From: an uncultured Dokdonia sp.
GTDB lineage: Bacteria > Bacteroidota > Bacteroidia > Flavobacteriales > Flavobacteriaceae
Length of the DNA: 34,828 nucleotides
Direction of reading: 5' to 3'
Assembly: GCA_913060645.1 (NCBI GenBank)
Contig: CAJXSW010000021.1
Location: forward strand, 1 to 34,828
The first letter of the stretch is position 1; every line of letters starts with the position of its first letter. Positions 2,737 to 32,202 of this stretch are shown in pieces. Below the pieces are notes generated by a model that saw nothing but the letters and a program-made list of their open reading frames with translations, was not told the DNA's origin and searched no databases. Position numbers and translations under genes: made by a program.

Positions 2737-3464
2737 TGCATATAGATCTCAATAGCGATGTAGGTGAAGGTGTAGGGAACGAGGCTCAGTTAATACCGTA
2801 TTTGAGCTCTTGTAACATCGCTTGCGGTGGTCATGCGGGAGATACAGCAACGATGTTGGAAGTTCTCGCTTTCGCGAAAATATCTAATGTGAAAATTGGT
2901 GCTCATCCCAGTTACCCGGATCGCAAGAATTTTGGTCGTGAGGCAATGACTATTTCTCATGAACTTTTAAAAGAGTCAATAACTTCTCAAATTAAACTTC
3001 TTATTAGTTTAGCAGCAAAAAGTGGACAACACGTACATCACGTAAAACCACATGGTGCGTTATATAACGAAGCTGCCAAAAATGAAGAAATAGCTCATCT
3101 CATTATAGATACCATACTTGAAATAGATGACCGTCTTGTGCTCTACGTACCTCATAATTCCGTAATCGCATCGCTAGCTGTTTCAAAACTAGCTATAAGC
3201 ATAGAAGGTTTTGCAGATAGAAATTATAATGATGATTACTCACTAGTATCTCGTAGTTCACCAGATGCAGTTTTGACATCTCATAATGCAGTCTTACCTC
3301 ACGTATTACGCATGGTAAAAAAGCGCCAACTAAAAACAATCAACAATCTTACACTTCCTTTTGACGTAGATACACTTTGCGTCCACGGCGATACAGAAAA
3401 TGCATTACAGATTGTAAAAGAAATTCACAAAGCATTTGCTCAAGAGAATATTTTAATAAAATGA
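2733..3464 (+). CDS. pxpA: 5-oxoprolinase subunit A (LamB/YcsF family)
   Basis: PxpA, with PxpB and PxpC, hydrolyses 5-oxoproline (pyroglutamate) to glutamate using ATP. It is a cytoplasmic enzyme that scavenges a damage product of glutamine and glutathione. The LamB/YcsF motifs are present: DLNSDVGEG at the N-terminus (Ser where Cys is common), NIACGGHAGD, GAHPSYPDR, VKPHGALYN, EGFADRNY and CVHGDT. From the ATG at 2733 the protein is 243 residues, close to the E. coli length. The ATGA overlap with the transporter stop (2734-2736) supports this start, and 2736 is an alternative ATG. A longer frame from 2676 runs through the transporter gene and has no family similarity at its front. A repeat-palindrome copy encodes AFAK at about residues 46-49. 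Confidence 0.95.
   Translation: MMHIDLNSDVGEGVGNEAQLIPYLSSCNIACGGHAGDTATMLEVLAFAKISNVKIGAHPSYPDRKNFGREAMTISHELLKESITSQIKLLISLAAKSGQHVHHVKPHGALYNEAAKNEEIAHLIIDTILEIDDRLVLYVPHNSVIASLAVSKLAISIEGFADRNYNDDYSLVSRSSPDAVLTSHNAVLPHVLRMVKKRQLKTINNLTLPFDVDTLCVHGDTENALQIVKEIHKAFAQENILIK
2866..2880. repeat. Partial copy of TTTCGCGAAA palindrome inside pxpA
   Basis: TCGCTTTCGCGAAAA matches the left arm and centre of the consensus TACGCTTTCGCGAAAGCGTA, but the right arm is lost after GAAA. It is read in frame as Ala-Phe-Ala-Lys. Confidence 0.6.
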
Positions 3465-4156
3465 TGTGCCAGTATGATTTTCATATTTGTAGGTTAGGAG
3501 ACTATTCATTGTTAATTCAAATAGATAGTACTCCATCTAAGGATCTTTTGAATTGGTTGCTCATTAAAAAAGGTGATTTGTCAAAACTTTTCAATGCTGA
3601 GGTAGTACATACATATAATGAGTTGCTTCTTAAAGATTGTATTTCTATAACTACAAACATAGATTCTTTAATTAATCAAGTCTCAGCTTTACTCAATGTT
3701 CGAGTATCTAATAATGATTGTAATGGCGTCGTACACCAGATTCCTGTTTGCTATAGCAGTCTCTATACTCCAGATTTAGAAGAATATGCATTGCAAGTAA
3801 AACGCACAATACCTGAAATTATAAAAATACATACAAATAGAGAGTATCCTATCTACTTTTTAGGATTTCTTCCGGGTTTCCCATATTTAGAAAATCTTGA
3901 TGCTCGATTACATCTTGATAGAAAATCTGTTCCATCACGTTCAATAGCAAGGGGAAGTGTTGCCATTGGAGGAACACAAACTGGTATTTATCCTCAAGAT
4001 AGTCCTGGTGGCTGGCATGTAATAGGGAGAACTCCTATTTCGCTATTTGACGCAACAAAAGCAAAGCCTAGTCTATTTAATGCAGGCGATACAATTACAT
4101 TTTATGCCATAAACGAGCGTGAGTATGAGAAGATAGCAATGTCTAATAATTTATGA
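3461..4156 (+). CDS. pxpB: 5-oxoprolinase subunit B (KipI family)
   Basis: PxpB/KipI-family subunit of the ATP-dependent 5-oxoprolinase, 231 residues from the ATG at 3461. That start overlaps the pxpA stop as ATGA. A second ATG at 3464 would shorten it by one residue. The longer frame from 3377 is only overlap with pxpA. Family signatures are GFLPGFPYLENLD and, further on, RGSVAIGGTQTGIYPQDSPG followed by GWHVIGRTP. The N-terminal half (about residues 1-85) is the less conserved alpha/beta domain, and the C-terminal half is the cyclophilin-like barrel. The Bacillus KipI role as a sporulation-kinase inhibitor should not be carried over; context here is metabolic. Confidence 0.94.
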   Translation: MMCQYDFHICRLGDYSLLIQIDSTPSKDLLNWLLIKKGDLSKLFNAEVVHTYNELLLKDCISITTNIDSLINQVSALLNVRVSNNDCNGVVHQIPVCYSSLYTPDLEEYALQVKRTIPEIIKIHTNREYPIYFLGFLPGFPYLENLDARLHLDRKSVPSRSIARGSVAIGGTQTGIYPQDSPGGWHVIGRTPISLFDATKAKPSLFNAGDTITFYAINEREYEKIAMSNNL

Positions 4157-5016
4157 AACCTTCTATTTCCATACTGCACCCAGGATTTTATACAACTGTC
4201 CAAGATAATGGAAGAGAAGGTTACGCACTTCTAGGAGTTCCACAAAGTGGTGCTATGGATAAACATGCTTTTATGATTGCAAATGCTATTCTCAATAATA
4301 CACCTGGTGCAGCAATGCTAGAGTGTACTTTATTGGGACCTACTATAGTATTCAATCATGATATCAACTTTGTAATTACTGGTAGCAATGCAGGAGCTAC
4401 GCTAGATGGGGCTCAGGTAATGGAAGGCGTTCCTGTTTTGGCGAAAGCCAAACAAGTATTAAAAATGTCTAAAATAAGCGGAGGATCTAGAAGCTATCTC
4501 GCATTTGCAGGAGGACTATATTCTCAAAATATACTAGGTAGTAAAAGCTGGTATTATCCACTCACACCACAAGGAAAGCTCAGCGTAGGGATGGAGCTAC
4601 CTTTAGGTATCTCGAGATATGGTGCGTCAAAAAATGCACATCTCAAGATGCAATCACAATCTGGGGTAATAAATTCATCTATGGCTACTATTAAAGTGTA
4701 TAGGGGTCCTGAGTTTTCAAAACTCACTTATAACCAGCAACAACAATTAAGTAATCATGTATTTACGGTTTCAAATCTATGGAACAGGATGGCAATACAA
4801 CTTGTTGAGATATTACCAAACGCTCTAAAAAGTATATATACAAGTCCCGTTATACCAGGAACAGTGCAGCTCACACCTTCTGGAAAATTAATTATTTTAA
4901 TGAATGACTGTCAGACTACAGGAGGTTATCCTCGAGTGTTACAAGTAGTAGACAGTGATCTTAATAAACTGGCGCAAATGCAACAGGGTAGTCAGTTTTT
5001 ATTGTGTGTTACTTGA
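4153..5016 (+). CDS. pxpC: 5-oxoprolinase subunit C (KipA / biotin-dependent carboxyltransferase-like)
   Basis: The third 5-oxoprolinase subunit, 287 residues. KipA-family motifs are TTVQDNGREGYALLGVPQSG, AMDKHAFMIANAILNN, LECTLLGPTIVF, ITGSNAGATLDG, and near the C-terminus TPSGKLIILMNDCQTTGGYP. The start overlaps the pxpB stop as ATGA, so all three joins in this four-gene operon are 4-bp overlaps, which suggests translational coupling and fixed stoichiometry. Its last 18 bp overlap the convergent gene at 4999-5304, so no separate terminator can lie between them. Confidence 0.95.
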   Translation: MKPSISILHPGFYTTVQDNGREGYALLGVPQSGAMDKHAFMIANAILNNTPGAAMLECTLLGPTIVFNHDINFVITGSNAGATLDGAQVMEGVPVLAKAKQVLKMSKISGGSRSYLAFAGGLYSQNILGSKSWYYPLTPQGKLSVGMELPLGISRYGASKNAHLKMQSQSGVINSSMATIKVYRGPEFSKLTYNQQQQLSNHVFTVSNLWNRMAIQLVEILPNALKSIYTSPVIPGTVQLTPSGKLIILMNDCQTTGGYPRVLQVVDSDLNKLAQMQQGSQFLLCVT

Positions 5017-5304: not shown

Positions 5305-5408
5305 AAGAATATTATTGTGGGGGGAAAATTGAACATATGTAAATATACTAGGGAAGCGATTATTCTAGTAGGGGTAAATGCCCTTATTTCATTGTTATAG
5401 GTAAAATA

Positions 5409-6782
5409 CTACAACCAGTTCATAAACTTCTTGAGAACACCAATTTTCCCTTTGTAAGGAGCATAACGCATGGGTACATCTATCCATGTACCACGACTTA
5501 CAATTGCCTTTGCATGACTAAAGGTGTAAAAGGATTTCTTGCCATGATAGCTTCCTATTCCTGAGTGACCTACTCCTCCAAATGGTAACTTATCATTTAC
5601 AAAATGAACAAGCGTATCATTCATAGCACCTCCACCAAAAGAGAAGTTGTTATTAAACCATTTTTTAAAAGATCGCTTTTCGGAAAAAACGTAAGCGCTC
5701 AGTGGTTTTTCCATAGCATTTATAATTCTTGAGATGTCCTCTTTGTTTTCATAAGTGAGTACAGGAAGAATTGGACCAAAAATTTCATCCTGCATTGCTT
5801 TGTCCTTTACAGTAACATTATCAAGCACTGTAGGGGCAATGTAAAGTGCATCCCTATCAGTATTTCCACCTTTAAATATTGTGGTGTTTTCAAGCATGCT
5901 TGAAAGTCTATCAAAGTTTTTCTCACTAATGATTCTTGCAAAATCTGGAGATATTGCAGGATCTGCACCATAAGCATTTGTGATTTCCACATCTAGTGCG
6001 GTGAGCAACTTATCTTTTACAGAAGTATGCACGAGGATATAATCTGGAGCGATACACGTCTGTCCAGCATTTACAAATTTACCCCACACAATTCGCTTTG
6101 CTGCTAGTTGTATTTTCGCAGATTGATCAACGATGCAAGGGCTTTTTCCTCCCAGCTCAAGAGTTACCGGAGTGAGATGCTCCGCAGCTGCTTTATATAC
6201 TATTTTACCCACAGGGACACTTCCTGTAAAAAAGATATAATCCCATCGTTGTGCCAGTAATTCTTGCGCAACCTCCTTAGCTCCTTGTACAACTGCTACA
6301 TGGCTATTATCAAAAACTTCAGCAATGATCTTAGCTAATAGTTCTGATGTTTTAGGAGTGAGTTCGCTAGGTTTTAACACAATGGTATTACCAGCTGCTA
6401 TTGCGCCCACTATTGGTCCTACGGCAAGCTGGAAAGGATAATTCCACGGGGAGATTACGAGCGTAGTGCCATAAGGTTCATACATGATTTTATCACTGGA
6501 CGGGAAATTTAAAAGCGAGGAAGAAACTTTTTTTGGCATCTGCCATTTCCATATTTCTTTAATGGCCTTATTAAGTTCCATCATGACAATACTAATTTCT
6601 GTAGCCACACTTTCAAAAGCTGGTTTTTTAAAATCGGCAGTGAGGGCATTGATAATCTCTTGCTCGTGGTTTTTTATGCTTTCGCGAAAGCGTACCAAAC
6701 AATCTTTCCTAAAAGCAATACTCTTAGTTTGTCCGGTTGCAAAATAATTTCTTTGAGTCTCTAGTAGTTGAGGAATAGTCAC
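5409..6782 (-). CDS. Aldehyde dehydrogenase, class-3-like, NAD(P)-dependent
   Basis: Oxidises an aldehyde to the carboxylate with NAD(P). The 457-residue length and lack of an N-terminal extension fit the ALDH3-like group that acts on fatty or aromatic aldehydes. Visible active-site features are SPWNYP (Asn114), KPSELTPKTSELL, FFTGSVPVGK (185-194), general base Glu209 in LELGGKSPC and nucleophile Cys243 in NAGQTCIAPDY. EIFGPILPVL and PFGGVGHSGIG follow near the C-terminus. The start is GTG at 6782, and the next methionine is too far inside the domain. Residues 31-36 (RFRESI) are encoded by a repeat-palindrome copy. The gene is divergent from ilvD. The true substrate cannot be told from the sequence. 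Confidence 0.93.
   Translation of the reverse strand: MTIPQLLETQRNYFATGQTKSIAFRKDCLVRFRESIKNHEQEIINALTADFKKPAFESVATEISIVMMELNKAIKEIWKWQMPKKVSSSLLNFPSSDKIMYEPYGTTLVISPWNYPFQLAVGPIVGAIAAGNTIVLKPSELTPKTSELLAKIIAEVFDNSHVAVVQGAKEVAQELLAQRWDYIFFTGSVPVGKIVYKAAAEHLTPVTLELGGKSPCIVDQSAKIQLAAKRIVWGKFVNAGQTCIAPDYILVHTSVKDKLLTALDVEITNAYGADPAISPDFARIISEKNFDRLSSMLENTTIFKGGNTDRDALYIAPTVLDNVTVKDKAMQDEIFGPILPVLTYENKEDISRIINAMEKPLSAYVFSEKRSFKKWFNNNFSFGGGAMNDTLVHFVNDKLPFGGVGHSGIGSYHGKKSFYTFSHAKAIVSRGTWIDVPMRYAPYKGKIGVLKKFMNWL
6675..6694. repeat. TACGCTTTCGCGAAAGCGTA palindrome, copy inside aldehyde dehydrogenase
   Basis: 19 of 20 bases match the consensus, with a perfect 14-bp core at 6678-6691. Read on the minus strand it encodes Val-Arg-Phe-Arg-Glu-Ser, a different frame from the copies in pxpA, ilvH and ilvC. 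Confidence 0.85.
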
Positions 6783-8799: not shown

Positions 8800-8822
8800 A
8801 AAAGTGGAGTGACAAGGAGTTG

Positions 8823-8865
8823 CCTTCAAGTTTTTCTCTTCTGTTTAGTATAAGAGGTTTGAAGG
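8823..8865 (+). other. Imperfect intercistronic hairpin between ilvD and ilvB
   Basis: CCTTCAA (8823-8829) can pair with TTGAAGG (8859-8865), and CTCTT (8836-8840) with AAGAG (8852-8856). No U-tract follows, so it is not a typical terminator. It might affect message stability or the ilvD:ilvB ratio, or mean nothing. Confidence 0.25.
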
Positions 8866-10723: not shown

Positions 10724-11281
10724 ATGAGTGAGCAAATAACAACATATACGGTAACAATATACAGCGAGAATAACATTGGGTTACTCAATCGCATCTCCGC
10801 TATATTTCAACGTCGTAAGATTAATATTGAGAGTCTCTCTGCCTCAGAAAGTGAGATAGATGATGTCTTTAAGTTTACACTAGTGGTAAATATTACAGAA
10901 CATCAAATGGAGAAAATCAAAGGTCAGATAGAACGCCAGGTTGAGGTTATCAAAGCTTTTTATCATACTGATGAGGAAACCATTTTTACAGAAAGTGCAC
11001 TTTTTAAAATTAATTCTGCACTACTTTTTGAGGAGCCTCAAATTCAGAATATTATTAAAGAAAGCCACGCACGTATTGTGACAGTTAATAGAGATTTTTT
11101 CGTTATCGAAAAATCAGGTCGTCGCTCAGAGATAGATCTGGTACACCGCGAGTTAAAACCCTTTGGTATTATGCAGTTTACTCGTTCGGGTAGAATTGCA
11201 GTTACTAAGACAGAGATGCCTATCTCTTCATTATTGCAACAAATAAGGAATGAGCAGGAGGCCGCTTTCGCGAAAGCGTAA
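10724..11281 (+). CDS. ilvH: Acetolactate synthase, small (regulatory) subunit
   Basis: Regulatory partner of IlvB. Its ACT domain binds valine for feedback inhibition and stimulates the catalytic subunit. The N-terminal ACT domain spans residues 6-80 (YTVTIYSENNIGLLNRISAI, then INIESLSASESE). The C-terminal ACT-like half has RIVTVNRDFFVIEKSGRRSE and ends in GIMQFTRSGRIAVTK. Length is 185 residues, normal for the long ilvH type (ilvN in some nomenclatures). The last codons (AAFAKA-stop) are formed by a repeat-palindrome copy whose right end supplies the first two bases of the TAA. Confidence 0.95.
   Translation: MSEQITTYTVTIYSENNIGLLNRISAIFQRRKINIESLSASESEIDDVFKFTLVVNITEHQMEKIKGQIERQVEVIKAFYHTDEETIFTESALFKINSALLFEEPQIQNIIKESHARIVTVNRDFFVIEKSGRRSEIDLVHRELKPFGIMQFTRSGRIAVTKTEMPISSLLQQIRNEQEAAFAKA
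11263..11280. repeat. TTTCGCGAAA palindrome forming the 3' end of ilvH
   Basis: Perfect 14-bp core at 11264-11277, with 18 of 20 bases matching over 11261-11280. It encodes Ala-Phe-Ala-Lys-Ala and its TA runs into the TAA stop. Confidence 0.85.
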
Positions 11282-11366: not shown

Positions 11367-12839
11367 ATGAACTACTTCAACACATTGCCACTTAGAGATC
11401 AACTGGCACAACTAGGGAAATGCCGCTTTATGGATGCTAGCGAGTTTCAAGATGGAATAGGAGCTATAGAAGGCAAGAAGATTGTGATAGTAGGTTGCGG
11501 TGCGCAAGGTCTTAATCAAGGTCTTAACATGCGTGATAGCGGTTGTGATATTTCATATGCATTACGTGAAGGTGCAATTACAGAAAAGCGTCAGTCTTTT
11601 AAGAATGCAACAGATAATGGATTTACAGTAGGGACGTATGAAGAACTTATTCCTACTGCAGATTTAGTGTTGAATCTTACACCAGATAAGCAGCATACCT
11701 CGGTAGTAAAAGCAGTAATGCCATTAATGAAGAAGGGAGCTACGCTTGCTTATTCTCACGGTTTTAATATTGTAGAAGAGGGAATGGAAATACGTGAGGA
11801 TCTTACGGTAATCATGGTGGCACCTAAGTGTCCAGGGTCTGAGGTGAGAGAAGAATATAAAAGAGGTTTTGGAGTACCTACCTTAATTGCAGTACACCCT
11901 AATAATGATCCAGAAGGGAAGGGGCTAGCGCAGGCAAAAGCCTATGCAGCAGCGACAGGAGGACACAGAGCAGGTGTTCTAGAGTCTTCTTTTGTAGCAG
12001 AAGTAAAGTCTGATCTTATGGGTGAGCAAACCATACTTTGTGGAGTGCTACAAACGGGCTCAATCCTTTGTTTTGATAAAATGGTAGAAAAAGGGATTGA
12101 TTCTGCATATGCTGGAAAATTAATCCAGTATGGCTGGGAAACCATTACAGAAGCCTTAAAACACGGAGGAATTACAACGATGATGGATCGTCTTAATAAT
12201 CCGTCTAAGATTAAAGCTTTCCAACTAGCCGAGGAATTAAAAGAAATCATGCGTCCGCTCTTTGAAAAGCATATGGATGATATTATCTCTGGTCACTTCT
12301 CAAAAACTATGATGGAAGACTGGGCTGCAGATGATAAGAATCTTCACAAATGGAGAGCTGCTACCGGAGAAACTGCTTTTGAAAAACAAGAAATCACTAC
12401 CGAAGAGATTACGGAGCAAGAATATTTTGATCACGGAGTTCTCATGGTGGCCATGGTGAAAGCAGGAGTGGAGCTCGCTTTTGAAACCATGACCGCTGCA
12501 GGAATTATAGAAGAAAGTGCGTATTATGAGTCACTACATGAAACGCCTCTTATTGCAAATACGATCGCACGTAAGAAGTTGTTTGAAATGAACCGTATCA
12601 TTTCTGATACGGCAGAGTACGGTTGCTATCTTTTTGATCATGCTTGTAAGCCTTTGTTAACTGACTTTATGAAGACTGTAGATACCAATATTATAGGTTC
12701 CGCTTTCGCGAAAGAAAATGATGTAGATAATCAAGAATTAATTGCTGTAAATGATGCAATACGCAATCATCCTGTTGAGGAAATAGGTGCTACACTACGA
12801 AGAGCTATGGTTGCAATGAAGAAAGTAAAAACAGCCTAA
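11367..12839 (+). CDS. ilvC: Ketol-acid reductoisomerase, class II (long form)
   Basis: Isomerises and reduces acetolactate and acetohydroxybutyrate to the dihydroxy acids, using NADPH and Mg. The 490-residue length marks the class II, duplicated-knot form also found in E. coli. The Rossmann motif is VGCGAQG (42-48). The cofactor loop has Arg67, Lys74, Arg75 and Ser77, a basic/polar set consistent with NADPH. Metal-site segments include [12 protein letters not shown] and, in the second knotted domain, SDTAEYG. A partial palindrome copy encodes SAFAKE near residue 449. The gene lies between ilvH and ilvA with short spacers. Confidence 0.97.
12701..12714. repeat. Partial TTTCGCGAAAG palindrome inside ilvC
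   Basis: CGCTTTCGCGAAAG matches the consensus and then diverges to AAAA. It is translated in the same frame as the ilvH copy (Ala-Phe-Ala-Lys). Confidence 0.6.
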
Positions 12840-14185: not shown

Positions 14186-14196
14186 GTGTAATCACA

Positions 14197-14212
14197 TTTT
14201 CGCGAAAGCGTA
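14197..14212. repeat. TTTCGCGAAAGCGTA palindrome downstream of ilvA
   Basis: TTTTCGCGAAAGCGTA starts 12 bp after the ilvA stop. The right half is perfect and the left arm is degenerate (17 of 20 over 14193-14212). It sits beside the 14231-14265 terminator. Confidence 0.65.
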
Positions 14213-15863: not shown

Positions 15864-15883
15864 TTCGCTTTCGCGAAAGCGTA
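15864..15883. repeat. TTTCGCGAAA palindrome between lipoprotein stop and its terminator
   Basis: 19 of 20 bases match the consensus, with the perfect core at 15867-15880. It lies 5 bp from the stop codon of the minus-strand gene and 9 bp from the terminator stem. Confidence 0.85.
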
Positions 15884-16885: not shown

Positions 16886-16905
16886 TACGCTTTCGCGAAA
16901 GCGTA
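16886..16905. repeat. Perfect 20-bp palindrome TACGCTTTCGCGAAAGCGTA
   Basis: This is the full consensus copy, a perfect 20-bp inverted repeat with no spacer. It lies 9 bp from the terminator of the giant T9SS gene and is intergenic. Confidence 0.9.
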
Positions 16906-22900: not shown

Positions 22901-23871
22901 CCTAAAGTAGCTCCTATTGGCACAACAACCGCGAGAGGAGAATTTGATGTAGGTCCATTGGTTACATTAGCCACGTTACCTAAGTCATAGGTTTCTCCAG
23001 CATCGTCAAAATCAAAATCCTGATTCCAATCAATCCATACTCGAGTATTGAAATTATTATTTCCTAGTGTGTTATTATGTACAATAATATTTTGTGTAGA
23101 GCCTTGTTGTACAGTGGTTGATATATTGGTGAAATCTGAATATCCTTGCGCAACTGGTGTGGTATTATTATCGATAGTATTAAAACTAACACGAGTTATA
23201 CCTGAAGTGTCAGTGTTATTTGCGGTTGAGTAACAATAAGAATTATTAATAATTTTGATATTATCAATGGCCATATCACTGGCATAATCATTTCCAGTAT
23301 TACCTACAATTCTTATGTTAAAAGTAGAGCTAGTATAGCTAGAAAGATCTATAAATTCTGTACTCCAAGCGGCGTCACTACTTGTTTGGCTTTGTCCATT
23401 TGAGGTAAATAAATTAGACCAAGATGAACCAGCATCAATACTGATTTCTACAGAAAGACTACCTTGACTGAATCCAAATTTATGATAATCAAATGCGAAG
23501 AATGCAGTTGTTTCACCGCTAATATCAATACATGGACTTATAAGTCTCGTAGTTCTATTTGGACCTGGATTCTGTAATAAGGATGCTTCTGTGTAATAGT
23601 ATTCGTTACCATCACTAGCGTTACTGGGGCCAGTGTTCGGAGATGGTGTGTTTCCACTAGTTCTAGTCCAATCACCACCATCACTTACATCTTGAGTCCA
23701 TTGACCAAGACTACCTTCAAAACTTTCCTCATATCCCATTCCAACAACTGGCCCGGTACATGAAAATGCAGTTTCGTTGTCAAAAGTTGAGTTAGCAAGT
23801 ACAGTTCTTGCAGAAAGGATAGTAGTAAGCACAATTGTGTGAAATACAATCAATGAAGTAATCTTTTTCAT
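16966..23871 (-). CDS. Giant T9SS-secreted multidomain surface protein (2301 aa)
   Basis: Signal peptide at residues 1-26, then a MAM-like module (about 46-208, FEGSLGQWTQ to AIDNIKI) and a GEVED domain (213-357). Three tandem choice-of-anchor-D repeats of the Hydin/ASPM type follow (365-484, 488-607, 614-732; each with NNDS/NDGDEN-Y-F). Next are a second MAM-like module (about 743-930) and a LamG-like region starting LKLWLKSNSGIT (about 950-1190). A clear concanavalin-like LamG domain lies at about 1425-1615 (FNGVADYMDADD, DEWHHIAVIYDG, DGTIDEVRVW). A GNPFPSALDANKF segment and a Glu/Asp/Thr-rich linker precede the type A T9SS sorting domain ending KLIIH. I see no catalytic motif. It is probably a surface adhesin or glycan-binding protein. 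Confidence 0.9.
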   Translation of the reverse strand: MKKITSLIVFHTIVLTTILSARTVLANSTFDNETAFSCTGPVVGMGYEESFEGSLGQWTQDVSDGGDWTRTSGNTPSPNTGPSNASDGNEYYYTEASLLQNPGPNRTTRLISPCIDISGETTAFFAFDYHKFGFSQGSLSVEISIDAGSSWSNLFTSNGQSQTSSDAAWSTEFIDLSSYTSSTFNIRIVGNTGNDYASDMAIDNIKIINNSYCYSTANNTDTSGITRVSFNTIDNNTTPVAQGYSDFTNISTTVQQGSTQNIIVHNNTLGNNNFNTRVWIDWNQDFDFDDAGETYDLGNVANVTNGPTSNSPLAVVVPIGATLGNTRMRVSSFFNAVPTSCLATAAGSGEVEDYTINVTSATPQPEIAIFGSGIEITDGSTTPNAGDGTDFGTITAGSILNRTFTIRNTGTATLNLSGSVLGGASATSYSITSPPPATIAAGASATFTITYNPTVGGIHNATFSVTNNDSNENPYNFSITGTATGPQPEISLNGLGNIINDGDTTTLVSNGTNFGASLINGSISRTYTIANSGSANLNLTGASPYAIITGDPYFTVTAIPSNTIIPGGGSTSFEVTYNPLVIGNHTATVTINNNDSDENPYTFVIEGQCTLTVAPEIDIFGNSVEIVDGDTTPTTADDTDFSNVFLGSSDANDFTITNTGTADLVLNGAQVQIQGGGGNFAISSMPSTTIAAGESSIFQVTYTPTGVGTHTATVRVRSNDGDENDYKFDIQGSSTIDISPRYTIHYNNFDVNVEGWTVTNPGGNSIWTYGANTTEPGTDGNYFYTNNYNDFAPGSDTYAISPVIDLTGFTDLRLYIDVRFNLDNDLEDGMNIEYSTDGGTNWTVLGTSGLGADNKWYNDANVLGLGTNVNGWSGINDSNFNAAKSQFMTSYLDLPASLVNNPQARFRVRFSDDNDATRDDGANFDNFIIVGNPQIPFGNPASGPANVASNLKLWLKSNSGITATDGNQVNVWSDQAQDNDATVSSFDAPTYFNNSSENINHNPVLSFNEADKTQLKGKGGFYSQDYWVVLKQNGTIDGTTPNAFEGVVAGRASNRQFSEDGTGFWTGKISIRFSGNDNMLSHMIGSTPASANTTTPNTYGRAYSTNSDSYIDEVIIINIKRNASGNGSEIYKNGIRVDNVSAFAYNQTTNTVGNVLPYDDINNSIYALGVSFAGLNRTDISSWFNGKITEFISYSTPNSLLNQKKIQSYLALKNGVTLHRTNSTTATRQGDENYIDSDGTTIWDTTINNGFTYDIAGVGRDDAATLNQKQSTSSNPGAIVTIGFSDIYNTNSENISANTNVISDKNFLVWGNNNGSFAASAPIQVDLSSGITGLNTLVDFTSILRTWKVVETGSVGDVKISVPEASLSATITPPGNFLMFISDTPSFSPTSEYRIMTANGTNLETIYDFEGTKYITFGYAPEYIYERSISFNGVADYMDADDVADLTGPFTMSTWVKAGANANNRDIISKSNIPYTEGYALRLTNAMVPRIVWKNAAGTTEALNASIALPQDEWHHIAVIYDGNRATFYIDGIEDTSAVRNNPVSSKNHFLIAASNHESPTRFFDGTIDEVRVWSQALSQEQLQFIMNQEIEKFTDDSVNGKIIPQNISKNEVATIPWADLEMYLPMSKYTFTNVKDESDNNYVAAIKNLQTVDFQTAPLPYVSTADGVWANTNTWTNGATQALPGAPSLVDGTQTIDWNIVQTAHNVSTASNNTVLALDVNTAELTIGNDSKIEVSHYLKLDGVMDLVGESQLIQTENSDLAATSAGRLERDQQGTSDTYSYNIWSSPVGPINITDINQAHTVASIMNDGTDENNPQSLNFSTGFNGANTSPKTVSAYWLFTYRNNPADTYSAYEQIGPYGSLETGDGFTMKGPGSGGITDPQNYVFIGKPNNGTDAVSIDKLINAGNDFMMGNPFPSALDANKFINDNPHLTGTLSFWEHWGGGNHFLADYEAGYALYTLSGGTPAVSHPAQNTSGVGTKTPTQFVAVGQGFFVRAAATGTTNFNNTQRVFAKEASSGSFFFNGETTQSESALNAEDDIVQHEDLREKFRIGFDSPSAYHRQLLLTIDENTTFGYDRAYDAVIDNHPQEDMMWMLDDEKAIILGVPAIENDRKFPLRISLPMDGEISIGVDALENINTENTTVYVFDALQDAYTDITTDEKFTLTLEAGTYLERFYIVFERTAEAEEETEDTTEDTNEQEENNQDVEVVEVEILDETEESDNLSVYFNSQSHNIVINKRVDYDVKSVQLFTMLGQLIKEWTPDTETSRIELPVQDVSTGAYILKMQKPQTTYTQKLIIH

Positions 23872-24076: not shown

Positions 24077-24191
24077 TGATTTGATTCTCTTTGCTGAGTA
24101 ATATATGTCAAATAATAGATTCTTAGGAGGTCAGAATTTGTTGATGAGAGTCCAACTTTAATCTGTTGTGACTTGGGTATTTCTCTTCAAA

Positions 24192-24207
24192 TTTTCGCGA
24201 AAGCTTA
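24192..24207. repeat. Degenerate TTTCGCGAAAGC palindrome downstream of the PID-CTERM gene
   Basis: TTTTCGCGAAAGCTTA, 15 of 20 to the consensus over 24188-24207. It lies 14 bp beyond the terminator stem, away from the gene. Confidence 0.55.
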
Positions 24208-24478: not shown

Positions 24479-27400
24479 TTATTGGATGACAATTTTATGA
24501 GAAACCTTTAGATTTTCACCTGCAATAGACAGTATATACATACCGCTACTTAGTTGGTCTAGGTCATGAATTACCGTCTTGTTTCCTCTAAATGACGTCT
24601 CCTTAATCATAACTGTTTGGCCTAAGATATTTGTAATAACTAAGTTTACATCACTTCCTGAAAGTGCAGTAGATGTAATTGTTAACGTGCCATTAGTTAT
24701 AGGGTTAGGATACATAGCAAAATCAATCACCTCCTCATTTGTTGTTGATAATACCTCACGCTGATAGATGATTTCAAAACGATTTGTGTCTACACTTGTT
24801 TCAACATTATTGTCAACAGTAAAGGAGATAGTGTTTAATCCTTCTTCTAGTAAAGTGGTATCACCTGTGTGGTTGTCTTTAATAAATGTCTCTACCTCGT
24901 TAAGCCCATAGATGTCAAGATCTAATGTATAATTGTTAGTTCTATACAATGCATTGTAAAGTTGTATTTGATCATCTTCTGTAGGCATCGCTACTTTATC
25001 AATGCTTAAGAGTCCGCCATCTTTTAAAACGCCCATATTCTCATCAATGTTAAAGAATTTTGAAACATCCTCAGAGGTAACATCGTTGCTGTAAACATCA
25101 CTATAAAGGATTACAAAATTATCTTGTAAACCTATTTCTTCTCCATAGTGCTCGCTTCTATATAATCTACCTATGAGGTGTGGTGATGTTGCAATAGTAT
25201 TTGATGTATTGCTATACAGAGGCACTTCATTACCAGGAACTTTATCTGTCTCATTAAAGATTATCTCAGTACTATTATCTGCTACTGTAGCATCTGTTGC
25301 GGTAAAAATGGCTTGGCCAGGTTGTATGTAGTGGTAGTCTTTGGAATTTGCTCCATTACTTGAGCCACTTCCGTCTAGAAGAACCGTTACATATTGCCCT
25401 CTTGCTCCTAGTGTAGCATCCCATACCCATATCTCTCCAGTTCTCACATTTGTAGAAGCTGAAAGTACCGTGTTCATATTTAGGGAAGCTTGATATGGAT
25501 TTCCTATAAAGTTAAAAGCCCCAGCGGTGTGGTTGAGTGTAGCGCCAGTTACACTTACAGGAGACGTTGCTATTGTTCCTGTCGCTCTTAATGTCGTAGC
25601 AGTGGGAGTGGCAGCATTACTTGTTACGTTTACACTACGATCACCTCTTACTAGAAGTCTGATAGGCTCACCAGCAGTTAAAGTATTTATATCTGTGTTT
25701 ACAACACCTTGCCATGACTGTGATGCATTATCTAATTTAAAGATAGATCCATTTCCAGAAGCCGTAGCATCAAAACCATTTGCACCTGTTAAAGAACCTG
25801 AGATATGAGTACCATAACCAGGATTAGGATTTATATTATCTGTTGGGAAAGAGGTGCCTGTGTTATTAACACCTTCTTGCCAGTTTGCATTGATACTTGT
25901 AGTTGTGGTTACAGGACTAGAAAGTAATCTAAAAGCCCTTCTTGCAGGAATATATCGTTCTGTAGTAACGTTACCAGAGATATTACCTCCAGTGATAACA
26001 TCGATCATTGCAGTCCTTGTCGCATTACTTAATAATGTAAGTGAATTTCCTGTATTAAGTGTGCCATCAGTTAGCGTCAACAATTTGTTTACGGAAACTG
26101 CTGTGCTTAAGGTAACACCTTGGGTGGTGTCACTGTTATCTATAACTAAGTTTGCGATTTCAAGATCACTCCCTGTAATTTCTTGAGGAGAGCTTCCCGT
26201 CATTAAAATCGTCCCACTTGCTCCAGAGATAGCGCCAGAGTTTGTAATGTTACCATTTATATCTAGGGTAGTAGCTGCTAGATCTAGTGTTGCTCCGGCA
26301 AGTATCGTTACATTATTTACTACTGTATTTGCAGATAGGGCAGGAGCTCCAGAACGCACTTCTATATTATCATTACTTGTAGCTATACCACTTGGATCTT
26401 GAGGTGACCAAGCTCCAGCATCGTATACGTAGTTTGCAGCTTCAATAGTAATAGTGTAATCTTCTACTTCTCCAAAAAAGCCAATCTCACAAGGAGTAGA
26501 TGGCGCATTAAATTTATTGCTTACTCTCATTCTTACGTTTCCTAGTACCGCATCTATAGGCACTATAATTGTGAATGGAGAGCTGTCAGTAGGTTGGTTA
26601 GCTTTATCAATATCTATACCTAGATCATATGATTCGCCAGTGTCTGTAAAATCTCCGTTTCTATTCCAATCTATCCAAACTGTTGTTGTATGACTATTAC
26701 TTCCAATGGTATTAAGGTGAATTGTGAGATTATGAGAAGATCCTCTAGAGAGTGTTGTAATCTCTGTTGTAAAATCAGTATAAGCAGGTTCAGGACCTGA
26801 AGATTGATCTATATCTCCTAGAATGACACGTGTAATCCCATTTGCAAAATCTGTACTTCCTTCTGAAATACAGTATGTAAGTTGTGTTGTAAATGTACTA
26901 GCTGCACTGTATGGAGAATCACCACCTGCTGTGCAAGTAGCCTTTACTTGAGCTTCGTATGTTTTACCAACCTCTAGACCTGTTAGGTCAAGACTATTAG
27001 TTGTGGTATTTATACTAGTGTAAGTTGTTGTTCCGCTTTCGCGAAAGCGCACTGTATAAGAGTTGTTTGGTGTTGCTATCCAGTTAAGTGTAGCAGTTGT
27101 CGCTTGAATGTTACTTGCTTGTAAGTTTAGCGGAGCTTCATCATTCACTACGGTAACTGTAGTTGTACAAGTATCTATATTTCCTTTAAAATCTGTAACA
27201 GTAAGAGTAACAGTATTTGCTCCAACATTTGTACAGTCAAAAGTATCTACATCTAAACTATAAATTTCTATCCCAATATTATCTGTGGAGCCATCATTTA
27301 TCTGTGATGGTTGTAATACTACGATGCCGTCGTATCCAAGGCTCACTGTGATGTTTTGACAAATTGCAATAGGGTCCGTTGTGTCCGTAGGGTCGATTCT

Positions 27401-30388
27401 AAGATTATCAATGGCAATATCGCTAGACGCGCCATTTCCTGTGGTTATTATAAATCTTATTTGAAAAACCTCATTACTATATGCGTTTAAATTTATGGTT
27501 GCATTTTTCCAATCTGTTCCGTTTGTACTTTGTGCACCAGATCGAGTAAATATTTGTGTCCAAGCTGAACTATTACTCAATTTTACTTCAGCTACTAGAG
27601 ATCCGACGTTTGTACCTAACATATGATAATCAAAATCAAATGTTCCAGTAAGACCACCACTCCAGTCTATACATGGACTAGTAATAATTACCTCTGCATT
27701 AGACCCTACTCCAATAGAGTTGCTTGATGCCTCAGTATAAAAATAATAAGTTCCTTGAGATGCAGCACTAGGCCCTGTCCCTGTTGTTGCAGTACTCCCA
27801 GATCCATGAGTTAAATCACCGTCATCATTTAAATTTTGGGTCCAGTCACCAAGACCTATTTCAAAATCTTCATGATTTACGGGCGTAGTTCCAGAAATAC
27901 AAGATCTATCTGTAGCTACATTTAAGACTCTAAATTCATCAAAGGAGAATCCTGCAAATGTAGTTGTATAACCGTCAGCATTATTTGATGAATCACTATC
28001 AAATACAAAACGTAGTTGTAGGTCTGATGCTCCTGCTAAGAAACTATTGGCTTCGGGGCTAATTTCTATCTCCTCAAGTACCCATTTATTACCTTTAAAG
28101 CCTTCAAATAACGGCAGATTGTCAGGTTGATTATCACGATCTGCTGTTGATTTTGCTATGCCACCAGACCCATTTGCTGGATTGTAGCGCATAGAGGCAA
28201 GCGTAGAGCCTGGTTTTGTGTATTTACCACTTAATGGAATCCATTGTCCTGAATTGCCATCTCGACCTTGTAATTGAGCATAATCAAAATTACGTTCTAA
28301 ATCCCATTTAGCATAGAACTGTATAAGGGTAGTAGAAGATAAATTTGAGATGTCGAAACTTTGATTAAGTGTGAGTTGTACATTTCTATCATTGGCATAT
28401 GGAGGTGTAGCATCAAAAGTAATACCTCTAGAGTTTCCAAAACCACTTGTAGCAGATGTTACCCATTCCGTCCCGCTACCAGAGCTCGTCCAGTTAGAAA
28501 TTGAGGTAGGATTTACATCATCAATAAAAAGTTCTGATGGTTGGTATGTTTTCTGTATCGTAGCTTGGTAGATAATATGAGTGTCATTACTTAGTGTAAC
28601 CTCATACTCAATAGTATCACCAGGACTTATAGTTCCTAGTTGATAAGGAATTACAATGTCTGTTTGCTCTTGCTTAGCAAGATTGATAGTTGTAGTAGTA
28701 CCAATCGAAGTGATATTTGTTGAAACAGGAGTAACCGTTAATGTAAGAGGACTCAAAGTCATTCCTAAATATTCTACACCAAAATTCAAGTTTCCAGAAG
28801 TTGCGGTGATATTAGAAGGAGTTTCGTCATGTAATTGAGCTAATTTTCCTGCGAACAGAGCATTTACAAGATTCATTCTTGTTGCTCTAGCCGCAATGAT
28901 TACAATCTGGGAAGGTGAAGGCCAAAATCCAGAACTAAATTGCGGGTCTGCTTCTTCACCTAGAGCATTTCCATTTTCTGGGGCAAGAGCAAGGATACCT
29001 TTTCCTGATCCTACGCTACCACCATTAAGTGGATCTGGATCACCACCTAGCATCCAGTCACTCATGTCTCCATTTGCAACCGTAAGAACATTAGGGGCTT
29101 CTCCATAAACGTATCTGTTAAATCGTGTGAGATCGTGACAGAATTTCACATAGTCGTCTTCACGTCCTGACGCAGGAGAACCTGGATACGCATTGTATCC
29201 ATGAGGCAGCAAGTTTGAGGTTGCGTGATGGTTGAGAGCTGTTTTTGAATCATGATTTGCTACAAATGCCTTTGTAATTCTTGTTTCTGGCTCAGAAAAT
29301 GCTGTGGTACCTCTGTAAACATCTGTTGTTGGGTCATTATTAGATCCTACTCCATTCCCAGTATAGGCAGTATTTGAACCCCAGAAGTAATCGTAATTTC
29401 TATTTAGATCGACTCCACGACGGAAATTAACACCTGTATTAGCATCTGGATTTAAATTTTTACGTTGAAAGCCGCCACCATTAGGTGCAAGTTGTTCATT
29501 CCAAAGTAATCCATCAGGATTTGCAACAGGAATGAAATACATCTCATGATTGTCAACTAAGTTTTTGATATCTGCATCTGTTTCATAGTTTTCAAGTACA
29601 TACCACATATAATAGATGAGGTTCATCATGCTACTTGCTTCACGAGCGTGACTCATTCCACTATAGAAAGATTCTGGTTCATTTGATTCATCCGTGTTAG
29701 GGTTATCAGAAATACGCACGTAATATATAGTTTGAGGATCCCAACTATCGTACTGACCACCATTAGTAAATGAATTACCGTGTGTTTTGATTGGCGTACC
29801 TGAGCCATCCTCAGCAAGGGATGCATCCTTACGCACAGATATTAGATTAGGATACAATTGTCTCATTCTATCTAATTCTGTAAGCATCTCCCCGTAGGTT
29901 AGACAACCATTCATACTTCCTAACTCAAAATTTTGAGGAGTTTGCCAGTTTACTTCAGTTTCCCCTTCGTATTGAATAATGTTAGAAATAGTAGTACCTG
30001 TGGTACTTAACGATCTAGTTTCATTATTAGAGTAACTTAAAGATTTTAATACATTAAGTTTCTGTTTTGCTTTTGGTAATTCAACTTCGTTTTGTTCTTT
30101 ATAGAAGGCATGTGTGTCTTCTACTAAAGTTGTAAATGAAATATTTTGTTGTTGTATAATTTCAACTTGTGAATCGGTTAGTTCTAAAACAAGATCATTG
30201 CCGAAAATCTCAGCACCACACTTAAGGTCTATACCCGAAGTAGCTATCAATGTGAGTTGGTTTGGGGTAGGATTGGAAATCTTAATTCGTTTTCCATTTA
30301 AATGATCGTGTTGCCCTTGAGCTGTAGCGATTGTACCAAATACAAACACAAAAATGAGGATAACAACCTTTAAGTAGGTTTGCTTCAT
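24479..30388 (-). CDS. T9SS-secreted M14 zinc carboxypeptidase, multidomain (1969 aa)
   Basis: Exported metallocarboxypeptidase with a signal peptide (1-23), a pro-region (about 26-155) and an M14 catalytic domain (160-515). Zinc ligands are His247 and Glu250 (HARE) and most likely His388 (ALNHHATSNLL). Asn329-Arg330 (DLNRN) binds the substrate carboxylate and Glu471 (LAPENGN) is the catalytic base. Downstream come a beta-sandwich, a choice-of-anchor/MAM-like module (about 640-825), a MAM module (836-1000), an HYR-like domain (1003-1090), fibronectin III (1092-1170), GEVED (1175-1315), a repetitive beta stretch and a type A T9SS sorting domain (about 1892-1969, YPNPITNGTLTI to KIVIQ). It probably degrades peptides at the cell surface. 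The cargo order MAM then GEVED is shared with the 2301-aa neighbour. Confidence 0.93.
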   Translation of the reverse strand: MKQTYLKVVILIFVFVFGTIATAQGQHDHLNGKRIKISNPTPNQLTLIATSGIDLKCGAEIFGNDLVLELTDSQVEIIQQQNISFTTLVEDTHAFYKEQNEVELPKAKQKLNVLKSLSYSNNETRSLSTTGTTISNIIQYEGETEVNWQTPQNFELGSMNGCLTYGEMLTELDRMRQLYPNLISVRKDASLAEDGSGTPIKTHGNSFTNGGQYDSWDPQTIYYVRISDNPNTDESNEPESFYSGMSHAREASSMMNLIYYMWYVLENYETDADIKNLVDNHEMYFIPVANPDGLLWNEQLAPNGGGFQRKNLNPDANTGVNFRRGVDLNRNYDYFWGSNTAYTGNGVGSNNDPTTDVYRGTTAFSEPETRITKAFVANHDSKTALNHHATSNLLPHGYNAYPGSPASGREDDYVKFCHDLTRFNRYVYGEAPNVLTVANGDMSDWMLGGDPDPLNGGSVGSGKGILALAPENGNALGEEADPQFSSGFWPSPSQIVIIAARATRMNLVNALFAGKLAQLHDETPSNITATSGNLNFGVEYLGMTLSPLTLTVTPVSTNITSIGTTTTINLAKQEQTDIVIPYQLGTISPGDTIEYEVTLSNDTHIIYQATIQKTYQPSELFIDDVNPTSISNWTSSGSGTEWVTSATSGFGNSRGITFDATPPYANDRNVQLTLNQSFDISNLSSTTLIQFYAKWDLERNFDYAQLQGRDGNSGQWIPLSGKYTKPGSTLASMRYNPANGSGGIAKSTADRDNQPDNLPLFEGFKGNKWVLEEIEISPEANSFLAGASDLQLRFVFDSDSSNNADGYTTTFAGFSFDEFRVLNVATDRSCISGTTPVNHEDFEIGLGDWTQNLNDDGDLTHGSGSTATTGTGPSAASQGTYYFYTEASSNSIGVGSNAEVIITSPCIDWSGGLTGTFDFDYHMLGTNVGSLVAEVKLSNSSAWTQIFTRSGAQSTNGTDWKNATINLNAYSNEVFQIRFIITTGNGASSDIAIDNLRIDPTDTTDPIAICQNITVSLGYDGIVVLQPSQINDGSTDNIGIEIYSLDVDTFDCTNVGANTVTLTVTDFKGNIDTCTTTVTVVNDEAPLNLQASNIQATTATLNWIATPNNSYTVRFRESGTTTYTSINTTTNSLDLTGLEVGKTYEAQVKATCTAGGDSPYSAASTFTTQLTYCISEGSTDFANGITRVILGDIDQSSGPEPAYTDFTTEITTLSRGSSHNLTIHLNTIGSNSHTTTVWIDWNRNGDFTDTGESYDLGIDIDKANQPTDSSPFTIIVPIDAVLGNVRMRVSNKFNAPSTPCEIGFFGEVEDYTITIEAANYVYDAGAWSPQDPSGIATSNDNIEVRSGAPALSANTVVNNVTILAGATLDLAATTLDINGNITNSGAISGASGTILMTGSSPQEITGSDLEIANLVIDNSDTTQGVTLSTAVSVNKLLTLTDGTLNTGNSLTLLSNATRTAMIDVITGGNISGNVTTERYIPARRAFRLLSSPVTTTTSINANWQEGVNNTGTSFPTDNINPNPGYGTHISGSLTGANGFDATASGNGSIFKLDNASQSWQGVVNTDINTLTAGEPIRLLVRGDRSVNVTSNAATPTATTLRATGTIATSPVSVTGATLNHTAGAFNFIGNPYQASLNMNTVLSASTNVRTGEIWVWDATLGARGQYVTVLLDGSGSSNGANSKDYHYIQPGQAIFTATDATVADNSTEIIFNETDKVPGNEVPLYSNTSNTIATSPHLIGRLYRSEHYGEEIGLQDNFVILYSDVYSNDVTSEDVSKFFNIDENMGVLKDGGLLSIDKVAMPTEDDQIQLYNALYRTNNYTLDLDIYGLNEVETFIKDNHTGDTTLLEEGLNTISFTVDNNVETSVDTNRFEIIYQREVLSTTNEEVIDFAMYPNPITNGTLTITSTALSGSDVNLVITNILGQTVMIKETSFRGNKTVIHDLDQLSSGMYILSIAGENLKVSHKIVIQ
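27032..27051. repeat. TTTCGCGAAA palindrome inside the fibronectin III domain of the carboxypeptidase
   Basis: Perfect core at 27035-27048, 18 of 20 over the full length. On the minus strand it encodes Val-Arg-Phe-Arg-Glu-Ser, the same frame as the aldehyde dehydrogenase copy. Confidence 0.85.
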
Positions 30389-30771
30389 AGCAATAGTAGG
30401 TTTAAGTCAATTAAGGAATTTGGGATACCTTAATTCATTAGGGGTTTATTTTTATAAGCTGCTAAACTAGAAAAAAACTAATGATAAATGTTAATAAAAG
30501 TGTTAAATTGTGTATTTTATAGATGATAAATGTATTTCGTCGACATTTTGGTTACATTTAAACTTTAGTACTTGTATATTTACTTGCTGGTCTAATTTGT
30601 TGGTATTTAGTTTTTTAAGGATTTTTTTATCTTGCTCAAAATTTTTAATATTGATAAATGAAAGCCGACTATCATTCGAAGAAATAAAAGCTTATTTGCA
30701 ACCCATTAATAGTAATTTGCATTTCTGTTTACCCTTATTTATCACGTGTAGTGCTCTTTAAATAATTCATT
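30389..30771. other. 383-bp divergent intergenic region (carboxypeptidase / haloperoxidase)
   Basis: Contains the shared elements at 30461-30543 and is otherwise AT-rich and featureless. An 83-codon open frame at 30510-30761 has a Cys/Phe-rich composition unlike its neighbours and is judged spurious. It must also contain the plus-strand promoter of the gene at 30772, which I could not place. Confidence 0.6.
30461..30543 (-). promoter_or_regulatory. Shared upstream elements of the T9SS giant genes, site 2
   Basis: Box A, GCTAAACTAGAAAAAAACTA (30461-30480), lies 73 bp upstream of the carboxypeptidase start. Box B is TGTATTTTATAGA (30511-30523, degenerate) and TGTATTTCGTCGA (30531-30543, identical to 24064-24076). 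The order and orientation match site 1. The region is divergent, so the gene at 30772 could also be affected. Confidence 0.5.
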
Positions 30772-32178
30772 ATGAGAATCCCACATATATATTCGTTACT
30801 TCTAGGAATCCTTGTTGTCGTCCTATTTCAATCTTGTCAAGATGATGTAGATGATGTGAGTCTTAACCAAAATATTGAAGTATCTGATATTATTGATACT
30901 TCAATAATAGTTACAGATCCTACTACACAGCTCATCACAGATTGGAATACACTATGGTTAGAAATAGATCGGTATGCTTATGGGATGAGACCTGTCGCAA
31001 CTGCCAGATCTTTAGCTTATATACATCTCGCGGCTTATGAAGTAGCGGTTGCAGATATAGATGGCAACCAATCTAATGTAAATAATCTTGATGGATTTGC
31101 TATTAATATTAATGAGCGTCCAGATAATTTAGACATCAAGGTAGCTTTAAACACTTGCTATGCAATAGTTTTTGATCACTTCATGTATAATGTGCAAGGA
31201 GATGTAGATGTGAAAATTGGCCAACATAAAAATGCCCAAGAAACCAGACTTCAAGAAGGTTTAAGTGCAGATGTAATTACAAATTCTATTGACTGGGGAA
31301 CCTACGTTGCAGAACGAGTAATTGCCTACAGCCAAACCGACACATCTGCAGAATCTCAAATAATAGAACCACAGCCATATGCTTATGAACCTCCTGCGGG
31401 TGAAAGTTACTGGACGTACAGTGCAGATGAGGAACGAGCTTGGTTTCCTTATTGGGCCAGTGCTAGGACATTTGTAATATCATCAGAAGAGACATCGAGT
31501 ATACCACCAGCACTTAACTATAGCACTAACGTAGATAGTGATTTTTATAATGAAATGATGGAAGTGTATACTATTAACAATACAGCTAGAGAAGAAGATA
31601 ATGATGATTTATGGATAGCAGAGTTTTGGTCTGATGATGTAGAAGGTCTCATGATGAGTCCTCCTGGTCGCCAGGTTTCTATTGCAAATCAATTGATAAA
31701 TCAGCTAGATGTGAGTTATGAGCAATCACTTATAATGCTTTTAAAGTTAGGTTTTTCACTAAACGATGCTGCTGTTTCCACGTGGGCAGATAAGTATGAG
31801 TATATGGTCATGCGACCTAGTGTGTATATCCAGGAACATATAGACCCTACATATCAAACCAATTTATATAGATTCATTAACTGGCCTAATCCTTCATTTC
31901 CAGGGTATCCATCGGGGCATTCTGCATTTTCTTCGGCGGCAGCTGGGGTATTTATCAATGAGTTTGGAAATACAATCAGTTTTATAGATAAGACGCACGA
32001 AGGTAGAACCGAATTTAGAGGAGCGCCGAGACAATATAATTCACTTTCAGAAATGGCTCAAGAAAGTGCTTTCTCTAGACTTCCACTAGGAGTACATGTG
32101 AGAATGGATTGCACAGAGGGATTGCGTCTAGGTTATGAAATATCTGATGCTATTAATGCTTATGACCTTAGTGAGTAG
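30772..32178 (+). CDS. Vanadium-dependent haloperoxidase-type PAP2 lipoprotein
   Basis: 468-residue lipoprotein (MRIPHIYSLLLGILVVVLFQ then SC, lipidated Cys22). The C-terminal PAP2 domain has all three oxyanion-site motifs. They are K-x6-RP at 341-349 (KYEYMVMRP), PSGHS at 380-384 with the catalytic His383, and S-R-x3-G-x-H-x3-D at 435-446 (SRLPLGVHVRMD), where His442 would bind vanadate or take the phospho group. Length, the helical N-terminal half and a marine flavobacterial setting favour a vanadium haloperoxidase relative, of the kind studied in Zobellia, over an acid phosphatase. Halide preference cannot be read from the sequence, and phosphatase activity remains possible. It is followed immediately by a palindrome copy. 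Confidence 0.85.
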   Translation: MRIPHIYSLLLGILVVVLFQSCQDDVDDVSLNQNIEVSDIIDTSIIVTDPTTQLITDWNTLWLEIDRYAYGMRPVATARSLAYIHLAAYEVAVADIDGNQSNVNNLDGFAININERPDNLDIKVALNTCYAIVFDHFMYNVQGDVDVKIGQHKNAQETRLQEGLSADVITNSIDWGTYVAERVIAYSQTDTSAESQIIEPQPYAYEPPAGESYWTYSADEERAWFPYWASARTFVISSEETSSIPPALNYSTNVDSDFYNEMMEVYTINNTAREEDNDDLWIAEFWSDDVEGLMMSPPGRQVSIANQLINQLDVSYEQSLIMLLKLGFSLNDAAVSTWADKYEYMVMRPSVYIQEHIDPTYQTNLYRFINWPNPSFPGYPSGHSAFSSAAAGVFINEFGNTISFIDKTHEGRTEFRGAPRQYNSLSEMAQESAFSRLPLGVHVRMDCTEGLRLGYEISDAINAYDLSE

Positions 32179-32182
32179 TTTT

Positions 32183-32202
32183 TACGCTTTCGCGAAAGCG
32201 TG
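32183..32202. repeat. TACGCTTTCGCGAAAGCGT palindrome just after the haloperoxidase stop
   Basis: 19 of 20 to the consensus, perfect core at 32186-32199, starting 5 bp after the stop codon. No separate hairpin terminator is visible here. Confidence 0.85.

Follow-up and report, generated by a model that had tools for sequence, protein, structure and literature searches.

The closest described counterparts of the element studied here are two sets of self-recognition tags in natural transformation, the DNA uptake sequences (DUS) found in Neisseriaceae and the uptake signal sequences (USS) found in Pasteurellaceae. According to two accounts (PMC2397512, PMC1939737), both occur as hundreds of near-perfect copies, are far better kept than their flanks, are enriched between genes yet also found within them, are evenly spaced, change by point mutation, and are scarce in newly acquired DNA. 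Their even spacing (Karlin et al., as cited) and their evolution by point mutation under molecular drive are set out in PMC1939737. Another point of comparison is HIP1 and the alternate highly iterated palindromes (HIPs) of cyanobacteria, described in PMC4390886 as short palindromes iterated genome-wide in one lineage. Here, we analyse a palindrome, GCTTTCGCGAAAGC, found in a stretch of 34,828 nucleotides (hereafter the window) from an uncultured Dokdonia sp. of the Flavobacteriaceae (assembly GCA_913060645.1, contig CAJXSW010000021.1, positions 1 to 34,828). It is abundant, nearly always perfect, evenly spaced, strongly conserved, lost in close sisters by substitution only, scarce in DNA that sisters do not share, and restricted to certain clades. 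We tentatively read it as a self-recognition tag for natural transformation of the DUS/USS kind, which we regard as the likeliest single explanation.

The palindrome differs from DUS and USS in its symmetry over 14–20 bp, in its occurrence in Bacteroidota, in its density of about one per 3–4 kb, and in that its receptor and uptake are putative. We found no publication describing it in open-access searches that included the literature on flavobacterial uptake sequences, competence, and palindromic motifs, and the 14-mer occurs in none of the open-access paper texts searched. These literature searches also gave no uptake sequence in Bacteroidetes, although transformation genes are being found in the phylum. 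If the palindrome is an uptake tag, it would represent a new and independently evolved form of sequence-marked bacterial sex, in a genus that is cultured.

Abundance and form of the palindrome

We call TTTCGCGAAA the core, CGCTTTCGCGAAAGCG the usual form, and TACGCTTTCGCGAAAGCGTA the full form. The genome from which the window comes (3,112,495 bases in 219 contigs, 89% complete) has 705 perfect 14-mers, i.e., one per 4.4 kb, and 727 copies of the inner 12-mer, for each of which the reversed control gives 0. Hence, in 97% of its copies, the 12-mer is flanked by both outer GC pairs. A sample of 434,828 bases, combining the window with 20 stretches of 20 kb each, contains 102 perfect copies where a third-order Markov model expects 0.0008, which bears out the claim of an earlier note on this DNA that the copies are far above chance. 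In the same sample, TTCGCGAA occurs 137 times, with both GCT arms in 102 cases, one arm in 34, and neither in 1. Near-misses are few: against the 102 perfect 14-mers, there are 9 forms with one mismatch and 27 with two, the latter mostly one-arm sites in which ATT replaces GCT.

The arms extend outward past the 14-mer with G (179 of 204), T (139), A (155), and A (119), followed by G-poor, A/C-rich sequence. These flanks point outward from both arms, whether the site is intergenic or coding. Several of the two-mismatch copies share a longer, recurrent asymmetric form, CACATTTTCGCGAAAGCGTA, in which CACATT replaces one arm. It is mostly intergenic (examples are at 14196 in the window and at L107:513, L109:6942, L117:12487, and L121:8675, among others).

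The window itself has six perfect 14-bp copies (starting at 6678, 11264, 15867, 16889, 27035, and 32186) and four partial ones (starting at 2868, 12702, 14196, and 24191), and all ten carry the core. The perfect copies lie exactly where they had been reported, and the partial ones at one or two bases from the reported positions. The longest copy is, as had been said, a palindrome of 20 bp. Allowing up to three mismatches gives 13 matches in the window, while 100 shuffles average 0.77 and never exceed 3. The copies are not in tandem and the palindrome carries no gene, as the earlier note had it. The ten sites, each with its state in three close sister genomes and, where given, in the diverged sister G149, are these (ORF, open reading frame):

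2868..2881, minus strand: one-arm site GCTTTCGCGAAAAT, full arm on the 3′ side of the minus strand, within ORF 2676-3464; core retained in 3/3 close sisters; perfect site in G149
6678..6691, unstranded: perfect 14-bp palindrome close to the 5′ end of ORF 5409-6782 (minus strand, GTG start; real start uncertain); retained in 3/3 close sisters and in G149
11263..11278, unstranded: 16-bp palindrome covering the last codons of ORF 10724-11281 (acetolactate synthase small subunit, Pfam); core retained in 3/3 close sisters; missing in G149
12702..12715, minus strand: one-arm site GCTTTCGCGAAAGA within the ketol-acid reductoisomerase (KARI) ORF 11367-12839; retained in 2/3 close sisters; lost by substitution in G152
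14196..14209, plus strand: one-arm site of the recurrent subtype, TCACATTTTCGCGAAAGCGTA, in a convergent gap, 11 bases past the stop of ORF 12920-14185; retained in 2/3 close sisters; perfect in G149
15866..15881, unstranded: 16-bp palindrome, 8 bases past the stop of minus-strand ORF 15889-16788; core retained in 2/3 close sisters
16886..16905, unstranded: 20-bp palindrome TACGCTTTCGCGAAAGCGTA just outside the end of the 2301-aa ORF 16966-23871; retained in 3/3 close sisters
24191..24204, plus strand: one-arm site ATTTTCGCGAAAGC, intergenic, at the opposite end of the 2301-aa ORF 16966-23871; core retained in 3/3 close sisters despite poorly aligning flanks
27034..27049, unstranded: 16-bp palindrome within the 1969-aa ORF 24479-30388; retained in G152 (the sole close sister aligning there) and in G149
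32184..32201, unstranded: 18-bp palindrome whose 14-mer begins 8 bases past the stop of ORF 30772-32178; retained in G152, the sole close sister aligning there

Conservation and change

The core is far better conserved than the sequence around it. In the window, 26 of the 30 site-by-sister comparisons with the three close sisters aligned through the site, and the core is kept in 23 of these 26 (hand count). Around the sites of genome G000, 36 of 40 persist; substitution accounts for each of the four losses, two of which affect perfect sites. Across three Dokdonia genomes (120 kb each), the core is kept in 75 of 79 pairwise comparisons, which are mutually dependent and concern sites selected for having the core in at least one genome. 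Its identity there is 0.992–0.996, compared with 0.89–0.92 in the flanks, and random 10-mers are identical in 0.41–0.57 of cases. The four losses among the 79 correspond to two distinct sites, both one-arm and both changed by a single substitution. Overall, the pairwise losses between close sisters are gapless substitutions in 8 of 8 cases. Against the diverged G149, 3 of 7 sites persist; of the other four, three show substitutions and one a gap, in a poor alignment.

The sites are concentrated in DNA that the sisters share: 98 cores lie in 314.5 kb of shared DNA and 3 in 45.5 kb of unshared DNA, part of which may be stretch ends without a counterpart. Recent high-identity tracts, which cover 1.3%, 0%, and 2.7% of the compared DNA, hold 0 of 28, 0 of 24, and 2 of 27 sites, numbers too small to decide on an excess.

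Placement and spacing

ORFs were called with a simple script, and the intergenic and frame counts are therefore approximate. Of random positions, 9% fall outside ORFs and 1.6% fall 0–20 bases past a stop; of the 135 cores, 71 (53%) and 20 do so, respectively. The 64 cores inside ORFs are in phases 0, 1, and 2 in 30, 14, and 20 cases. The intergenic densities per kb in convergent, codirectional, and divergent gaps are 2.27, 1.62, and 1.27 in G000 and 1.9, 1.41, and 1.72 in G153.

The earlier note called the copies not regularly spaced. This proved wrong, as the sites are significantly more even than random. The coefficient of variation (CV) of the gaps is 0.59 in the 435-kb sample, compared with 0.88 expected, and lies below all 2000 simulations; it is 0.44 on contigs C1–C3 of the same genome, which overlap this sample. 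In G149, it is 0.74 (377 kb; p 0.0006), and in G153, G152, and G155, it is 0.61, 0.655, and 0.63, with 0, 11, and 4 of 2000 simulations as low. Along the chromosome of G168, from genus g11, the 20-mer sites are uniform (50 listed of 57; Kolmogorov–Smirnov [KS] p 0.57), so the suggestion of a replication-linked site marking the origin or terminus finds no support in this one genome.

Low-G+C regions hold fewer sites. Two large gaps in G150 (5.5 Mb) are 30% G+C DNA with ordinary genes (glycosyltransferase, ABC transporter, radical SAM), and the largest site-free gaps of G149 hold ORFs of 4431, 5052, and 2939 codons. The ORFs of 4431 and 5052 codons (L340, L341), in the two largest gaps, are adjacent, and each follows an ORF of similar size to the other's, of 318 aa. 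In the window, the 6.9-kb ORF 16966-23871 has one site at either end and none inside. Across 13 near-complete genomes, the number of sites shows hardly any relation to genome size (rho 0.40, p 0.18), and density decreases with size (rho −0.70, p 0.008), a correlation that is partly built in because density is the count divided by size.

Distribution among genomes

All 18 Dokdonia genomes have the palindrome, with 369–905 copies, and the 17 other than that of the window all hold hundreds; its presence is thus not peculiar to one assembly. The mention in the earlier note of similar palindromes in marine Flavobacteriia is in this sense borne out, for Dokdonia. A locus of Dokdonia sinensis (L025), which among named genomes gives the best match to the window's KARI protein (94% identity), contains six 14-mers over its 21 kb. 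Since it is also identical, across 4464 bp, to a locus of G151, a genome from the same genus as the window, that genus is Dokdonia. None of the 79 further named loci, flavobacterial and related, contains the 14-mer. In a survey of the family (397 genomes from 237 genera, tallied by eye), six genomes have more than 21 copies of the inner 12-mer (445–917), and these belong to Dokdonia and to genera g11 and g191. The remaining 391 have 0–21 copies, and the reversed control gives 0–3. In g11, the 20-mer is present in 23 of 23 genomes with 3–83 copies; the motif-rich status of its genomes G168, G183, and G186 was assigned from a 100-kb sample (G168) or from 20-mer counts of 57, 76, and 4. In five of five sampled genomes, the most frequent 10-base palindrome is TTTCGCGAAA.

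We placed the motif-rich genomes on a tree of a single gene, rpoB, with 29 genomes (one of 30 gave no match). The motif-rich label requires two changes on well-supported branches, and 0 of 200 bootstrap trees give one. Dokdonia and g191 branch together, with the motif-poor G144 as their sister, and g11 branches elsewhere. All three genera have a 16-base core in common; the next bases are TA in Dokdonia and G168 and mixed in G187.

Machinery for uptake, segregation, and methylation

All 25 genomes tested, motif-rich and motif-poor, have ComEC, which hence does not discriminate between them. Of the 15 genomes from the three rich genera, 6 exceed the cut-off for the type II/IV ATPase (PF00437), and of 9 others none does. 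At this cut-off, the classical DUS machinery is therefore not common to all. The cluster of this type-II-secretion-like ATPase is patchy in distribution; in L353 (G156) and L354 (G165), an operon resembling type II secretion or type IV pilus systems includes a strong T2SSE ATPase (approximately 475 aa) and adjoins a 724-aa ORF.

According to PMC8459023, transformation of Riemerella, a relative, requires ComEC, DprA, and RecA, together with proteins outside the known machinery, including a predicted DUF5689 surface protein and an outer-membrane protein, both reported to be widespread in Flavobacteriaceae. A sequence-reading receptor of this kind may, by analogy, serve the palindrome. We retrieved five ComEC neighbourhoods from motif-rich genera and five from others, and scanned ten proteins, all from L355, L359, L360, and L361. 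No receptor was found among these ten (thioredoxin-like, POT transporter, DPP IV, NlpC/P60, and LpxB proteins), and the search for relatives of RS04915 and RS04920 from Riemerella, which covered these neighbourhoods only, gave neither.

Each of the 12 genomes tested from the three rich genera has exactly one protein matching HTH_ParB, and 2 of 10 other genomes have a second, weak match. The methylase search covered the C5 family PF00145, as distinct from the N6 and N4 families, and found it in 5 of the 15 rich-genus genomes and in 6 of 9 others.

A putative tag for self-DNA uptake and its rivals

The roles listed in the earlier note were a methylase or restriction-avoidance signature, a nucleoid or segregation protein site, a replication-linked element, and a selfish repeat. 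The list is partly supported; the best-fitting candidate, a DNA uptake sequence, is not on it. In its sharpness, even placement, conservation, tolerant positions, change by substitution alone in close sisters, and scarcity in unshared DNA, the palindrome matches DUS and USS, and for this reason we favour the uptake tag. We infer a receptor, an uptake bias, and a drive. A surface DNA receptor would prefer double-stranded fragments bearing the palindrome, whose symmetry would allow a dimer to read it in either orientation. Fragments would enter by a flavobacterial outer-membrane route rather than a type IV pilus, then pass through ComEC, and homologous recombination would swap resident alleles. 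Since recombination replaces resident alleles, a mutated site would be mended by incoming intact copies. Such molecular drive would keep the sites perfect, spread them in shared DNA at about one per 3–4 kb, and set them in tolerant positions, and newly acquired DNA would stay without them.

Several results weigh against an uptake tag. No receptor stands among the ten proteins scanned beside ComEC, which is itself as frequent in motif-poor genomes, and the pilus-type ATPase, part of the DUS/USS machinery, is below the cut-off in 9 of the 15 rich-genus genomes. To our knowledge, DUS and USS are not palindromes. Recent high-identity tracts hold too few sites to show an excess there. The phage-like contigs L191 and L231 carry sites, which plain foreign DNA should not. 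Finally, PMC1939737 argues that a compaction signal would be more evenly placed than DUS are, and the strong evenness observed here thus also suits an architectural role.

That role is the main rival: the palindrome would be the binding site of a dimeric protein that organises or segregates the chromosome, folding, condensing, or anchoring it every few kb. We consider it unlikely, though still the strongest of the alternatives. The twofold symmetry over 14–20 bp fits a dimer, and the outward A/C-rich, G-poor flanks, the very strong conservation, the even spacing, the uniformity along one g11 chromosome, and the sites in some phage-like contigs would all suit such a protein. What speaks against it is that copy number barely tracks genome size and density falls in larger genomes, that unshared DNA is almost free of sites, and that the ratio of 102 perfect to 9 one-off copies is sharper than for known architectural proteins, which tolerate more variation in their sites. 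Regarding segregation, the nucleoid or segregation site of the earlier note survives as this rival, without its dedicated ParB, of which no extra copy exists in the 12 rich-genus genomes. The sites of parS and Noc are likewise dimer-read palindromes with the consensus TTTC...GAAA. They are few and clustered near the origin, and the palindrome has hundreds of copies along the chromosome, in genomes that each have a single ParB, just as motif-poor relatives do; its TTTC and GAAA halves are 2 bp apart, and those of parS 4 bp. We rejected a parS/ParB site given the 705 copies, the uniform 20-mers of G168, and the lack of a ParB/Noc paralogue in the 12 rich-genus genomes tested. If a chromosome-organising protein does bind the palindrome, its arrays of sites would be among the densest and most exact known in bacterial chromosomes. 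Either of the two readings can be tested directly with one 20-mer.

The other explanations are weaker. A HIP1-like palindrome, made and kept by methylation-linked mismatch repair, is improbable: it would share with HIP1 its symmetry, high iteration, and restriction to a lineage, but HIPs reach 1000 to 2000 per million bases, according to PMC4390886, and the density here is about 0.2–0.3 per kb. The palindrome is also longer than HIP1 and several times rarer, and its one-mismatch class is tiny where HIP1-type repair would leave a large one. The lack of PF00145 in 10 of 15 rich-genus genomes leaves the proposed methylase signature unsupported for the C5 type, the one covered by the search. Slightly more improbable is a Chi-like two-way signal for recombination or repair, or some other replication-linked signal. 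E. coli Chi has a density close to the one perfect copy per 4.4 kb observed here, and the sites in phage-like contigs would be compatible with it, but Chi sites are short and directional and the palindrome is symmetric over 14–20 bp. Moreover, the 8-mer core TTCGCGAA does not occur in two pieces (L383, L388; 35.7 kb) of the lytic Nonlabens phage P12024S (JQ823122), whose host is not established as motif-rich. We give very little credence to a transcription signal, either a bidirectional terminator or an operator. The 20-mer RNA folds at −7.3 kcal/mol and cores are enriched just past stops, but nearly half of them (64/135) lie inside ORFs, the hairpin is followed by A/C-rich sequence without a T run, and intergenic densities are similar across the three gap orientations. 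Equally remote is a selfish mini-repeat of the REP, MITE, or a similar kind that spreads by insertion. Its dispersal and lineage restriction would fit, but all eight close-sister losses are gapless substitutions, and neither a target duplication nor a longer element was seen, the flanks being biased in composition only; among the four differences from G149, the single gap is in a poor alignment.

Returning to the uptake tag, a more specific scenario is possible, though we hold it with less assurance than the tag itself. The palindrome may be an uptake signal independent of those of Neisseria and Haemophilus, read by a non-pilus outer-membrane receptor, which arose or spread twice (in Dokdonia with g191, and in g11) with the same 16-base core. 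It would then be a transformation "language" shared across marine lineages that are separate in the rpoB tree.

Sites outside the motif-rich genera

Low-copy genera have 23 sites in nine stretches from six genomes, and all 23 fall within ORFs, where they are often read as GCT TTC GCG AAA GC (AFAKA). By visual reading, with no family search, these ORFs look like CusA-type pumps, a 405-aa outer-membrane efflux protein, P-type ATPases, and Fur-like regulators. The islands (L016–L024, from G078, G087, G101, G073, G111, and G012) are in genera otherwise without the motif, and in their 405-aa gene, two sites often lie 933 bp from each other. Pairs at exactly this distance in low-copy genomes had suggested a parS near the origin; this was rejected because the 23 sites are in efflux-like ORFs, which indicates gene transfer instead. 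The simplest reading of these sequences is gene flow outward from the motif-rich genera, which the palindrome would mark in metal-efflux-like islands of other genera.

A scan of a viral collection gave at least 120 stretches with the motif, of which the 80 listed mostly have single matches. The IMG/VR contigs L191 and L231 have, among the same matches, two 14-mers each in 12–14 kb; their genes include an integrase and a tape measure protein, as well as Mu-like transposition genes (PHROGs).

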